In this document: one piece after another, positions 30,501 to 44,042 of the stretch
Position numbering within the stretch: position 1 is the stretch's first letter
Layout: every line of letters starts with the position of its first letter
Assembly: GCA_032358255.1 (NCBI GenBank)
Contig: JAULBX010016637.1
Span: 1 to 64,000 of the forward strand
Direction of reading: 5' to 3'
Length of the DNA stretch: 64,000 nt
DNA from: Heterotrichella gracilis
Taxonomy: Eukaryota > Sar > Xanthophyceae > Tribonematales > Xanthonemataceae
Position numbers and translations under genes: made by a program
The notes under the pieces: generated by a model
Databases searched by the model: none
What the model was told of the DNA's origin: nothing
Seen by the model: the letters and a program-made list of their open reading frames with translations, nothing else

Positions 30501-33500
30501 GTCTCGGCATTGAGGTCGAGAGAGCAGGCGCGTCACCCACCTGCGCAAAGAATGAGCAGATAAGACAGGCACAATATCACCAGTGACACATATGTCAAAC
30601 TGTGAAGTAAAATGAACATGCTTTGAACAGTGAACAGGATGACGTTCATTACTGCACCAGCACCTACTGGACACAACCTCAGGATTAATAACTTATTATC
30701 AAAATCTAAGAAATTCTTTTCAATTTTTAATAATTTTTTAATTTTAAAAAGAAATGAGAATACAGGATTACTAGAAAACAATTTGAATTTTGAAATAAAA
30801 GTATTTTATTACACTTTCTGTCTATTTTTATCAGTGAACTGCAAATGCCAAGCGCGCATCATCACCGTATAGATGGATGCATGCACCGAGAATCCATAAT
30901 TTTAAACAACAAGCAGGCCTTTGTCATGAGAACAGAACAAGAGAAGCAGGTTGTTGACATGGATCGCCTTTGTCATGAGAACAGAACATGAGAAGCAGGT
31001 TGTTGACATGGATCGCCTTGCCAACTGCAAATGCGCACACACCTGGGAATTATTTGTGCAGAAAAAAAACGATTGAAACCCCTCCTTTTTTTAACATAGA
31101 ATGTTAATCCATATTTAAGCAGTAACCCAGGCAATGTCACTTACCTTTCAGAGTGCAGCACGACTGCGGAGTGCTCCCTGCTGGTTCCCTGCTTGGGCAT
31201 GAGTAGCGGTGGCTTGGGCATCAAAGGCTGCAGGGAAAGCTCCATGGATATTGTTGCTGCTGGGGCTTCAGGATGTATGTGGTAGCCCAAAATGACTTGG
31301 GGCACATTGATCTGCAGAGCATAGATAGCAGCATGCTCATATGCAAGATTATGAGCGCGCATGGTTCCTGTCTGTCTCAGCGCTTGTCTACCCATAGACC
31401 TCCAAACTTGGGTCCAGGCTTATCCACAAAGGTAAACCCCTTGCGTTTGCCGTGTGCATTACGAAATATCCAGCAGAAAGTGGGGATAAATCTACTTTGA
31501 GCGACTAGACACGGAAATGTGCAACAACTGGCTCATACCGAAGGCACAATGCGGCCAATTAGACACCATTCAACCCATGCACTGACTGTGTGGGGTGCAG
31601 TGGATGCTGCAATGGCAGTGCATTGTACCATGAATGTCCCTTGGACAGTCCTCAATGAAACCAGTACAGAGAATGGGATTTGCACTGTCCCCAGGTACCG
31701 CTGCTCACGCGTCACCCTTGCAAATCGGTGGTGACTGTCGCGAAAACCACCAGTGCTTTTTCCACCAGAGGCTGCCTTCCCACTCCCTTTTTTGCCAGCT
31801 GGTGCGTATGAGGTGTCAGCAATTTCCACTTCATCGTATATGTTGATGATGACGAGGTCATTGGCCTGCAAACAAATGATACATGATTGCCACCACAGCG
31901 TTCAATACCCAAATTAAGCATCAGTGCATGTATGCTGTGGTAGGGGGAACAAGGAAAAAATTGACTATTCACCTCCTCTCAAAGTATGAGGGCGTTGGTT
32001 GAGGCACTTCACTCTACGCACACTAAATCCCACTGAAACACGGCACTGCTAGTCATGCTGCACGCAATTAACAAAAAAAAAGCATGCCCACATATCTACT
32101 TACATCAGATCCGTAATCTACTTCATCTGATGCAAGCAGATGGAATGCCAGAGACAGTTGCTCATTCCATGCCGGTGACCCTCCAGCTGACACAGATGTC
32201 TCCTCCAATGCATTCTGGTAGCAGACTTCAACAAATGGCTGTAGCTGTCTCTTGCGCTTCTGCTTTGCGTCCTCTCTGTAGCAATCCAATCAGCAACCGT
32301 AAACAGTCTGCAAATGCAACTGGTACAGTAGACATGCAACTGTAGTAGCATGCTCGTTTTGAAGGCAGTACAAATGTGTTACAACTTGGTTATTCTGATG
32401 CATCGCATGCACGCAGGGTAGGTCACTGGTGTGAGGCAGTAGAAGCACATCACCACACTATTGCGGTGCAACAATGTTAAGTGAGTGAATATACATCTGC
32501 ACAATGCAACCAGAGCCAAGGTAGCACTACCAAGGCAATTTTGTGGGTTAATTAGACAGACTGTTGAGTTCGGTGGAAATTTCATGCGCAGCGTTTGCAA
32601 CAGAGTTGCCCCTATAATGATACATCCCTGTTTCAAGATACCTGATGACTGTTTGTAGTTGCGCTTTGGCCCCTTTGCTGCGATGCCCCTGCTTGACAGC
32701 TTTTGCACCGATTCGAGACTTGGGCCTGTGTGGGGTGATGGGCTCATCCTCACTTGCCCTTGTGGGGAGGTGTTCAGCCCTGTGAATGCTGACCACAAGC
32801 TGGTACTTCTCGTCTTTATTGTCACCCCCCTGCAATGCGTTTAAATTCACTCATAACTAACCGACATATCTGTCACATTGCATTCATCGTGCCGCACTTT
32901 CCTGTGGTAACATGCTCTCATGTGAACTCTTGGCAATGCAGCTTAGCAAGGGCAATGCAGGGCGATGCAATGCAGGGCTACATATTTTAAGGGCCATTAT
33001 CACAGCCTTACCAACAAGCTTGACCCTCCACAGCAACCTGGTGCAAACCGTACAAGGTCTTCAAGCCGGAACCTGAAAAAGCGATGGTGCAGTTTCATGT
33101 ACTGTACTGACACTGACTGTAATCGCAAACCAAAGTCTTTGATATCTGCCTCCCGCTGATCCACTGGCGCTGTCATTGCGCCACACCGCCACTGCGCTGC
33201 TCGATCCCGCCTTTGTACCCACGCTTGACCCAACCTGCCACTGTTGACACAGCAAAATATTCAGCAGAACATTAAAGATTCTACATCGGAAATGTAAGGC
33301 AGTAATATATAACGCAATGTACATAACTGTAACCTTCAACATGCACTTTCCCATTCCACACACATGGACAGTGCAACGCAACTGCAGAATTGACTATAAC
33401 TATGTGCCATAATAGGCAGCCAGACAGTCCCAGATGAACGTCCCGGATGAAACCCGGATGTAAAACCCTAATTCTCCATGTTCCACATGAAAATTTGCAC

Positions 33501-39921: not shown

Positions 39922-42900
39922 CTAATTGAGGCCTGTGGGAAGGCTGCTGTAGTTCTGATCGAAACAGAATGGCTCAATTTGTAGCTCCAAAGCTGACACC
40001 GGATATTGGATGTCAAAGGCAGCAAGCACTTCTGGATGGACAATGCCAAACACACCCAGCTGCTGCACTGTCTCATTGCGTTTAGCATACACAGCTGCCT
40101 GTCGCCCAGGGAAGAAGTTGCGGTCGTCAGATGGTGCCCAGTAGTAGCCCCCGTTGTACTTTCGCGATGCCAGCTCTGCCTCGCCTGCGCAAAATTGTTG
40201 GGGAACACTTCACTAATTGAGCAGCAAACATGCCACCACTTCCTTAGCCACTATTCACAGTGCTCCTGGTATAGGCTGTTGCCAGCGTATTTTGTTGCCT
40301 ATAGTTCCACTGGCACGTGTTCACAGTGCCGGGGCAACAGACAACGCTGGCAACAACCCATTGCCAGTCAATCATTTCAATAATGAGGGTAAAAAACAAG
40401 GACATTGAGATACGCAAAATAAGGACTTCTTCTTTGCAGTCTACGCACCTTGGAGTGGTATCCCCAACACCTCCATCACCCTGTTGAGCAAGCCATGGAT
40501 GACCTCAAATCCTGACTCTTTGCTGCAGTGCAGTGCAACTAGTCGCCGCTGGTTTGCTGCGCCAGTTTCAGACTCACTGGAAAGCAATATTACATCCGAG
40601 ACCTGCATGAAAACGTGGAAGAGTTTTGTCAGCTCAGGCCACTCCCAACCTCCGTTTCCATTAACGACAATTGCAGGGGGGTGCTGACTTTCCACAGAAG
40701 CCCATTCAGACCTTCATCACAAACAACGACTACAAAACCACTATCAAGCTCCGGCAGCTGCTGAAGTGTTTACTAGGATGTGCATGCACCCATTGAGGCA
40801 CATACCTCAAACAGTTTGATAGGCAGTGGCGCATCCTTGTTGGCACCCAGCGTCTTGAGTGCACCGGCAAGTAGCGTTGTCCGGCAAACCTCAAACTCAG
40901 CCGTGGCGGGATTCCCTGGAGTGGGTGATGCTAGGTGAATATCCTTGTCGCATGCCACCATGCCATCAAAATCGAGATGGCAAATCTCACGGTGATGATG
41001 TAGTACACAGCGATGCAGTATCCACATTATGCAGTTGCATCATGCGCATATCTAGAAGGGGCGTCGCACCTATGCATACAGCTGTCTTGCCATCATCCTG
41101 TCGCAGGTTCAAAGAGTTCTCTGCCTTAGAGCACAGCGCCCAGGTGAGTATCTCTGTGTAGCCTGCCATGGCACACTCAGCTCGCAAGAGCTCTGTCAGC
41201 TGGTTGAGGGGCAGTTCCCGCCCAACAGTGACGGTGTTGGGAACAGTCTTGGCAATGTTGTTGTACCCGTACGCAATCGCCACATCCTGCACGGCATAGG
41301 CAGAAGATGAGCTTGTGCCAGTATGGAGGTGATATGGGGGTGTGAGGATGACGATCACCCAGTGGCCAGCAGAGCATTGGCATATACCATCATGCATTTT
41401 CTGGCCAGACCTTCAAGGGATGAGTGCTATGCACCTGCCAATACCCTAGTGGTCCACATACCTCCATGACATCGCATGGATGCAGGATGTCACTCCGGGT
41501 AGGAGGTACACTGACGTGTATCGATGTCCCGTCCGACACTGTTGCCTGGTGCTGCATCTTCCCCAATATGGTTGCTATTTGCTGTGCTTCCAGCTCCACG
41601 CCAATGCTCTTGTTGATGAAATCCACAGGGACAACAAACTCTCTGCTGGACAGGTCTGGGTACACTGCAACATCAGACATTCAATAATCAGTTCTAGCTG
41701 CTCAACAAGCAAGATGGCATCAAGGAAGCGGCTCTCAACCAGGAGCGTGCACACAAATTGGCGACACAGTTACAGGAGCATGCAAGCCATCAGAAGTCTA
41801 ATTGTCGTCCTTTTAGATCCGTTGGTTGATCCTGACTTTAGGTATCGTCATTGGCAATCAGAAGCAGGTGCAGGCATTACTTGGCTTTCATGTTTACAAC
41901 AATAACGTGCGAGCCGTCAGAAGTCTAATTGTCGTCCTTATGGATCCGTTGGTTGATCCTGACTTTAGGTATCGTCATTGGCAACCCAGGAGCAAATGCA
42001 TGCATTTGATGACGTTTGTGGTACAATAACAATGTGCAAGCCGTCAGAAGTCTAATTGTCGTCCTTATGGATCCGTTGGTTGATCCTGACTTTAGGTATC
42101 ATCATGGGCAAATGCATATGCCTGCATTGATGACTGTCAAGATCAAATGAAAATGTGCTGGCCATCAGAAGTCTAATTGTCGTCCTTATGGATCCGTTGG
42201 TTGATCCTGACTTTAAGTACCGTCATAGGCCAGGGAGAGAAGAGTGACAAAGTGCCTTGCTTATGCTCCTGCCTCTGACTGTACAGGTTGACTATTGCTG
42301 CATGACTTACCGTGGCGATCTCCCATGGCATCGATGACCTCCACTGGTTCTGTTTGGAACGGTACCGCACTGTACTGACTGAACATCGACACCACCGTGT
42401 TCAGAACAATCTTGGCCTTTGTCAGGTCTGTAGCAGTGCACTCAATGAGCACATCGGTTGTCTCCAATGTGATCTGCAAGTGAGGGGAGGCCACTGAAAC
42501 CACCTCTAGAGGCAACCATACTTGATCATTGGTTGGGCATCAGGAACAAGCCACCACGGTGAACTGTGCTGTATCATCCCAAGCATAATGTGATGTAACC
42601 ACGTACCGCTGAGTGTGCGCCATTGATGATGGGTGGCAAGGAAAGCACAGTGCGGTTGGCGTCGTAGATCACAGGGTACACCAGGGAGTCCTTGATGATG
42701 GGCACAAACTTCTTGAGCTTCTGATCATTGGCCAGGTAGTACTGCACAAATGGGTGTGGAGTCAAAAAGCTTGCTGGCGCAGCAGGTATAGAAGCAACAC
42801 TGGGGTATTATAATACATTTGACGGCATACAATAATACTGCAGGGCCTGTTGCATACCTCCATCAGCTCAGCGGCGTTGAATTCCCGCGCCTGCTTGAGA

Positions 42901-44042
42901 GGAACAAACTTGATGTCTTCTGGAGGCAGTGCCTCATATGTGAAGGGACCCTGCAGGGTGTGATCTCATGTGAAATGAAATTTGGAAACTGGATACTGGG
43001 TCAAGAATAAGTAGGATGCAAATTGAGACTCCTGTTTTCACTGTATTATCTTCTTTGTCAAGGCTGACACTTCATCATGAAGGCAGCTGCCATGTACACA
43101 AACAGACAGCAATCACTTTTGGCGCCGGCGCCCACCTGGATTGTGGCCAGGTCGTGTGTGCCAATGGCGACCAGTGACCGCTGCCTGCACAGATTTTGGT
43201 GCAGCTTATCCTGCAGGTCAATGAAGCTCTTGTACCGTACTTCATCGAAGTTGATTCCCCGCAGCACCGCTGCTACCACAAAGGGCCTGACCAGAGCAGT
43301 TTCTGGCTTGACTACGATGCGCATGGCATCGCCTGTGATGGCATGGCGCACATGGGAAAAGTTAGCTGTTGTTTTTTGCTAGCACGATGGTCGCTGTGAT
43401 GGCGCACCAGGAGCTAACCACTGCACAATGGTCTGTGCAAACAGTGAGAAAACTTGTTGACAAAGCAGAGAGGTTTCCCTGGTAGTGCATACCTGGCACC
43501 TCCGCCACTGTGTACGTTGGAGATGGTACCCGGCCCAGGAAGATGTTCAGCGCCCGTGAGATACCCTCCAAACACAGCATGTCATACCGGTTGGCAGGAA
43601 TGTCAATCTTGTACAGAACTTCCTCATTTGCATCGGGTATATCACCCTCCACATTCAGCTCTTTCCGGATCATCTCCTTCTCAGTGGTCTACACAAAGGT
43701 ATCATGCGAGGTCTTAAGATAAAGGTGTGGATTCTCAACCCATAGAGTGCAAGGAAACGGTAAGCCAACAGCACAGGGGTGGACAAGGAGGTAGTGAGAT
43801 TGTCCAGTTGGTACAGTACAGTTTATGCATGCCACCAGCAGACATACCACATCGTCAAGCTCGATACCGTATTCGAAGCATAACTCTTGGAACTCCTCTT
43901 CAGCTGCAGGGGTGCAACCAGTTAGGTGGGGGTTGAAATAATGAGGACATGACTAGCACATCACTGTTGCACCATTCAACGTACTGTATTCTCTGCCAAG
44001 AGCTTCAAAGAGCTTATCGCGTACTACACTGACGACGGGCAT
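39922..44042 (-). CDS. FARSB: Phenylalanyl-tRNA synthetase beta subunit (cytosolic)
   Basis: Beta chain of the alpha2-beta2 enzyme that charges tRNA-Phe. It carries the B3/B4 editing module and the B5 and catalytic-like domains. Twelve exons in coding order: 44042-43985, 43903-43848, 43688-43493, 43365-43136, 42950-42858, 42741-42607, 42473-42311, 41664-41462, 41286-41070, 40915-40806, 40602-40449 and 40184-39922. Phases close, giving 625 residues. Diagnostic blocks in order: [129 protein letters not shown] and RNFFPGRQA. These are the archaeal/eukaryotic-type beta chain, not the organellar single-chain enzyme. The start [19 protein letters not shown] fits the family. The intron 41665-42310 holds the snoRNA-like array. 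Confidence 0.96.
41786..41855 (-). ncRNA. C/D-box snoRNA-like unit, copy A
   Basis: Intronic, in sense with the host PheRS-beta gene. Reading the minus strand, a C-like box ATGACGA (41851-41845) and a D box CTGA (41793-41790) delimit 62 bases. They are flanked by a 4-bp terminal stem (41786-41789 with 41852-41855). An internal 12-base element at 41823-41834 is complementary to the conserved 5' end of 18S rRNA. The C box has one change from RTGATGA. Confidence 0.6.
41913..41982 (-). ncRNA. C/D-box snoRNA-like unit, copy B
   Basis: Same 62-base spacing between box C-like ATGACGA (41978-41972) and box D CTGA (41920-41917), with a 3-bp terminal stem. The core is nearly identical to the other three copies, whereas the flanks differ. 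Confidence 0.6.
42040..42109 (-). ncRNA. C/D-box snoRNA-like unit, copy C
   Basis: This copy has a perfect C box ATGATGA (42105-42099) and D box CTGA (42047-42044), 62 bases in total, closed by a GCC/GGC stem. It is the best match to the C/D consensus. Confidence 0.68.
42158..42233 (-). ncRNA. C/D-box snoRNA-like unit, copy D
   Basis: Box D CTGA at 42168-42165 and C-like box ATGACGG at 42226-42220, again 62 bases apart. The terminal stem is the longest of the set, six pairs (CTGGCC at 42158-42163 with GGCCAG at 42228-42233). The C box is the most degenerate. Confidence 0.58.

Follow-up and report, generated by a model that had tools for sequence, protein, structure and literature searches.

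The box C/D snoRNA genes that an intron of the alga's PheRS-beta gene very probably carries form a family of four copies made by tandem duplication. The four units lie in sense with the host gene, and the C and D boxes and a short terminal stem stand at the edges of a nearly invariant core. A fifth copy is found in a modelled intron on another contig, and all five copies contain the same 12-nt complement to the 5' end of the 18S rRNA. This copy, the 18S complement and a D'/C'-like pair inside each unit go beyond the original prediction.

Four tandem units in an intron of the PheRS-beta gene

The DNA analysed, referred to here as the window, is a single stretch of 64,000 nt. The host gene was modelled as eight exons joined through GT-AG introns and giving a 367-aa product; this model covers exons 1-8, without the 3' part or the end of the ninth exon. 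The product matched the Pfam families PhetRS_B1, B3_4 and B5, and its best PDB match, over the whole length, was 3l4g, PheRS beta, with an E value of 4.2e-125, in agreement with the gene named in the original prediction. The features of the locus, with the units lettered A to D, are the following.

41462-44042, minus strand: PheRS-beta exons 1-8 as modelled, with Pfam and PDB matches
41665-42310, minus strand: host intron of PheRS-beta, 646 nt, GTAAGT...TTGCAG
42165-42226, minus strand: putative snoRNA copy D, C box ATGACGG at 42220-42226, D box CTGA at 42165-42168
42228-42233 with 42158-42163: copy D terminal stem, CTGGCC with GGCCAG, 6 bp
42044-42105, minus strand: putative snoRNA copy C, C box ATGATGA without mismatch at 42099-42105, D box CTGA at 42044-42047
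Copy C terminal stem: GCC/GGC, 3 bp
41917-41978, minus strand: putative snoRNA copy B, C box ATGACGA at 41972-41978, D box CTGA at 41917-41920, 3-bp stem
41790-41851, minus strand: putative snoRNA copy A, C box ATGACGA at 41845-41851, D box CTGA at 41790-41793
Copy A terminal stem: GCCA/TGGC, 4 bp

The units are four direct copies (register 41752-42230, spacing 127/127/121), for which TRF returned a period of 127 over 41781-42230. From C box to D box, each of the four units measures exactly 62 nt (minus strand, 41790-42226), and all four cores lie on the minus strand within the 646-nt GT-AG intron, so that the identical 62-base units in one intron and their sense orientation, both claimed beforehand, were recovered at these positions. 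A reading of the units as tRNAs was ruled out, the tRNA search having found 0 tRNA genes. Elsewhere in the window, a tandem repeat with a 49-nt unit occupies 30917-31019, in 2.1 copies that match at 98%.

Among other genes of this genome, the chlorophyll a/b-binding family was matched 43 times. For one such piece the closest chains were 9kqp_3 and 6zzx_3, presumably from Coccomyxa and Chlorella, before several named Lhca3; for a second piece 9vfj_2 (LHCI-2, two stretches) came first and 8bd3_3 next. These matches make it likely that the alga is a trebouxiophyte of the green lineage.

Boxes, terminal stems and chance expectation

The box D reads CTGA in all four window copies and CCGA in the fifth copy, E. 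The C box, RTGATGA in consensus, is perfect in only one of the five copies (C), with one mismatch in A, B and E and two in D, and a U-to-C change at C-box position 5 is common to four of the five. The terminal stem scores 4 pairs in A, 3 in B, 3 in C and 6 in D. For these four copies the original prediction had described just this, a CTGA in each unit, a C box intact in copy C and altered at one or two positions elsewhere, and a short stem kept throughout with six pairs in D. In the alignment, copy E has a stem of 5 pairs directly adjoining its CCGA box; in copies A-D a single base separates box D from the stem and pairs only in A. The terminal-motif position is occupied by U.U in copy C, by C.U in A, B and D, and by C.C in E. 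The K-turn of U4 snRNA has a G-C pair at the corresponding position. In single-strand folding, copies C, D and E were predicted to form the terminal stem and copies A and B were not, and the folding was notably better than that of shuffles only for D (z -2.24), the other copies giving z values from -0.44 to -0.85.

We compared the units with 3000 dinucleotide shuffles each, under a criterion of at most one C-box mismatch, a CTGA and 3 or more stem pairs in a span of 55-70 nt. The numbers of shuffles that reached it were 0 for D, 1 for C, 0 for B and 2 for A; copy D, with its two C-box mismatches, itself falls outside this criterion. When up to two C-box mismatches were allowed and the stem had to have 5 or more pairs, 22 placements were found in the whole window (6 on the plus and 16 on the minus strand), and copy D alone would therefore not stand out. 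Within the intron, two placements were found on the opposite strand, each having 2 mismatches in the C box and a 3-pair stem, and the minus strand gave the four units and one further placement (41880, 91 nt, 2 mismatches, stem 6).

A covariance-model search, which had been proposed as a check on the predicted snoRNAs, returned nothing in their favour. Rfam gave no match at the gathering score in the whole window, and when E values up to 10 were admitted, 4 matches at chance level (E 6 to 9.9) appeared in the intron, of which the sole one on the minus strand was the Tetrahymena snoRNA TtnuCD31 on copy A, with 15.4 bits where the gathering score is 75. A match to an Rfam family is needed for filing a sequence under a known family and not for membership of the box C/D class. 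The lack of a match may be due to the tapering off of snoRNA-cluster conservation between land plants and algae that is described in PMC5122169.

A fifth copy and the conservation of the core

A DNA search of the genome with copies C and D located copy E at C663:131735-131812. Patterns made from the 23-nt D' half and the 20-nt D half, at up to 3 mismatches, hit the same five places, with 0 matches for the backward controls, and a pattern of a C-like box plus TTAGACTNCTGA hit only the four window copies, with one backward-control match. These genome counts are lower bounds, that is, at least five copies in 68.5 Mb, counting near matches only; the core pattern had 0 matches in viral contigs. Copy E has the sense orientation within a modelled intron of 626 nt (G000:C663:131530-132155, L005 4031-4656), whose bordering exons join in frame in the gene model; the gene to which they belong matched no Pfam family. 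Its core has 55-57 of 62 bases in common with copies A-D, and its flanks share 11-21 of 50 bases, ungapped, with those of the others on either side. Of the 10 bases that adjoin the core on its 5' side and contain the stem, 8 agree with copy D.

A copy located elsewhere with unmatched wider flanks and the short inverted ends would also be accounted for if the units were a DNA repeat with no RNA function, small and either mobile or borne by introns, that has spread into two introns. We regard such a repeat as highly improbable, as only a lower bound of five copies was counted in the genome, the differences are concentrated outside the guides, the boxes lie at the edges of the repeat and both sites are intronic and in sense. 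A repeat that is kept in relatives while its boxes are not conserved had been named as evidence against a snoRNA, and the comparison within this one genome touches on that without going so far: in copy E the repeat is kept and the D box reads CCGA in place of CTGA. The snoRNA-like character of the cluster is supported by the boxes and stem that edge the block, with a weak C box in most copies, by the guides that copy E keeps and by the sense-intronic position.

Within the array, the cores are identical at 58-61 of 62 positions (differing at 1-4, 94-98%), and the three inter-copy spacers at 42/59, 39/59 and 47/64 plus gaps (66-73%). For each spacer alignment, none of the 300 shuffles reached the observed score. 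Resemblance to two of the spacers extends into the sequence that follows copy A, where 0 and 1 of 300 shuffles did as well, and is absent from the sequence that precedes copy D. Since the spacers are still alike yet diverged and the core is alike, the tandem duplication is real and the core was held while the spacers drifted. At the two edges of this block, which has changed far less than the spacers, stand the C and D boxes with the terminal stem. The selection on the core that had been deduced from near-identical cores between dissimilar spacers is supported by these values and by the degree to which copy E is kept. Gene conversion or a very recent tandem duplication might instead maintain the cores, with no selection on an RNA, and a tandem array with a 127-nt period is what such events would leave; we consider this extremely improbable, because spacers and cores that arose from the same duplications differ so much in identity and because copy E, on another contig, has kept most of the core.

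Over the five copies, nine core sites vary (5, 7, 11, 36, 37, 39, 42, 58 and 60). The 8-nt stretch 35-42, in the loop between D' and C', holds four of the nine (enriched, p 0.011), and the 30 nt of the guides hold one (depleted, p 0.017), for intervals of loop and guide that were picked after the alignment was seen. These sites bear on the possibility that A, B, D and E belong to the same C/D family and are decaying, so that copy C would be the only active one, which is compatible with a duplicated snoRNA family. The perfect C box found only in C, the two C-box changes of D and the altered D box of E would fit decay. Decay should, however, reach the guides, which hold a single variable site, and all five copies have the 12-nt 18S element unchanged; moreover, ATGACGA is more simply ancestral than decayed, because A, B and E have the same C-box letter. 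We therefore see partial decay of the family as possible and rather unlikely.

An internal D'/C'-like pair and a predicted guide against the 5' end of 18S rRNA

The alga's own 18S is represented by its first ~70 nt (L007 1797-1868), at the end of G000:C762, and a query of the assembly with SSU and LSU sequences found no further rDNA, which appears to be missing from the assembly. As only these ~70 nt of own rDNA were at hand, eukaryotic rDNA contained in bacterial genome records was used for comparison, namely eight loci (L013-L020). These records, seven MAGs and one named Actinoplanes strain, carry a eukaryotic-type LSU stretch, and contamination is likely. A match of an 18-nt LSU pattern on contig C390 (2 mismatches) was set aside as evidence of rRNA, since it did no better than the backward controls, which gave 1 and 2 matches. 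A scan of viral contigs for LSU had 0 matches.

Each unit contains a D'-like CGGA at core positions 31-34 and a C'-like AGGACGA at 41-47 (AAGACGA in E), both off consensus and assigned after the 18S match was seen. In the alignment, their tandem G-A letters are kept in five of five copies, and the two departures from the D'/C' consensus would, we infer, form a G32-C45 pair. With this putative internal pair, the unit may be read as a double guide. The element upstream of the D'-like box is present in every copy.

41823-41834, minus strand: 18S-complementary element CAGGATCAACCA in copy A, one base 5' of the D'-like CGGA
41950-41961, 42077-42088 and 42198-42209, minus strand: the identical CAGGATCAACCA in copies B, C and D; also in copy E on contig C663

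At core positions 18-29, CAGGATCAACCA is a perfect 12-nt complement of TGGTTGATCCTG, nt 5-16 of the 18S, and this site is present in the alga's own 18S fragment. We take UACCUGG to be the 18S start, and the numbering of U8 is based on it. The 18S start was found in four of the eight comparison loci, where CAGGATCAACCA pairs perfectly in L016 and L020 and with one G-U in L013 and L018. Shuffle tests were run on three of the eight loci: a 12-nt match to the 18S or better was obtained in 16 of 1000 shuffles for L020 and in 13 of 1000 for L016, and for L018, which has a GATCTTG variant at the 18S start, the longest perfect match was 9, with 658 of 1000 shuffles as good. On the opposite strand, the longest rRNA match was 8 in L020 and L016 and 9 in L018.

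The D+5 rule and an 'NNGA' form of boxes D and D', which CGGA fits, are given in PMC8053127. Under this rule the D' guide is predicted to address U8 of the 18S for 2'-O-methylation. That the five-copy snoRNA directs this methylation, or else masks the very 5' end of the 18S for a time, is a tentative proposal that we hold to be rather less likely than not. The first methylated base listed for the Arabidopsis 18S is A28 (PMC8053127, Table 1), and a search of the open-access literature found no publication on Um8 of 18S rRNA with a snoRNA.

The 18S 5' segment is also used by the box A of U3, which binds a stretch there, and by the central pseudoknot. Box A shares CAGGATC and the same 18S segment with the units. 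The RNA might be a C/D-type chaperone or processing factor that acts on the 5' end of the 18S in the pre-rRNA and not mainly a methylation guide; it would overlap the binding stretch of U3 box A and so time U3 release or pseudoknot formation. The 12 bp with nt 5-16 would serve such a role, and so would the lack of a methylated base before A28 in the Arabidopsis table (PMC8053127, Table 1). The length of the element and its register next to D' are, on the other hand, those of an ordinary methylation guide, and we regard this role as improbable. A search of the genome with a U3 pattern gave no match to the alga's U3. Unlike U3, the unit is 62 nt long, and no other U3 feature was noticed in it.

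Candidate targets of the D guide

The D guide ends in CAATTAGACTT directly before the CTGA box, that is, TTAGACTT before CTGA. By the +5 spacing, its TTAGACT-N-CTGA could address the C of LSU GGAGUCUAA, presumably yeast C663 and Arabidopsis C675, the site of snR58 and SnoR58Y; human SNORD104 has this register too. In register, LSU GGAGUCUAA can form 8 bp with the D guide (7 Watson-Crick, 1 G-U); this region was found in six of the eight loci and reads GAGTCTAA in one of them, L015. For the known guides, 25S C675/U676 is given as the target of Arabidopsis SnoR58Y, through its D' guide (PMC8053127), and 25S Cm663 as that of yeast snR58 (PMC5344495).

With AAGTCTGGT, which is SSU by position, the D guide can form 9 bp including two G-U in three loci (L016, L018 and L020). 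The C of LSU GGAGUCUAA or that of SSU AAGUCUGGU is a candidate site. Competing sites were seen at L018 334 (8 Watson-Crick pairs), L020 7198 (9 pairs) and L020 6528 (10 pairs, three G-U), and the best six sites per locus reached at most 8 Watson-Crick pairs and a total of 10 pairs. We did not adopt LSU C663 as a secure target of the D guide, as other sites score equally or better. A match of 15 pairs (3 G-U) between the D half and L016 was set aside because it lies before the 18S start and out of register.

A model for the intronic units and comparison with known snoRNAs

In the model that we favour, a tandemly duplicated family of intronic C/D snoRNA genes, splicing of the PheRS-beta pre-mRNA would free the intron with its units. 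In each of them, the K-turn formed by boxes C and D and the short terminal stem would bind the 15.5K/NOP56/NOP58/fibrillarin core, and the bound core would shield RNAs of ~75 nt from exonuclease trimming. Each RNA would carry two guides, of which the D' guide would pair with 18S nt 5-16 for 2'-O-methylation of U8 and the D guide would lead to a second methylation site. Transcription, snoRNP assembly, target and methylation are all put forward here on the strength of the genomic data.

If the U8 target holds, the alga would have an rRNA modification site that is absent from the Arabidopsis list and a snoRNA in competition with U3; it would offer a test of how methylation guides and U3 share the 18S 5' end during formation of the central pseudoknot. 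Green algae would, in any case, gain a candidate tandemly amplified intronic snoRNA. Within the searches made, the PheRS-beta host, the five-copy family and the predicted target at the 18S 5' end are new, and the arrangement itself is of a known kind. No publication on a snoRNA hosted in an intron of phenylalanyl-tRNA synthetase was found in the open-access literature, and among the matches listed there none was a report of snoRNAs in trebouxiophytes.

The LSU site that the D guide may address is, in Arabidopsis, addressed by the D' guide of SnoR58Y, and the pairing here consists of seven Watson-Crick pairs and one G-U. As for the genomic arrangement, snoRNA clusters are largely intronic in Chlamydomonas. 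That intronic snoRNA clusters are known from green algae and plants had been part of the original prediction, and the published accounts agree. Mainly polycistronic clusters, usually with multiple isoforms, are described in Chlamydomonas, snoRNAs that are intronic and clustered in O. tauri, and few green algal species are stated to have a snoRNA catalogue (PMC7671301); plant clusters are conserved and partly intronic (PMC5122169). Because snoRNA clusters are described for Chlamydomonas (PMC7671301), a new host gene would be an ordinary extension. Like the clusters of Chlamydomonas and land plants, the array would place several snoRNAs on one precursor; unlike them, it has PheRS-beta as its host, and its four units would all be the same snoRNA.
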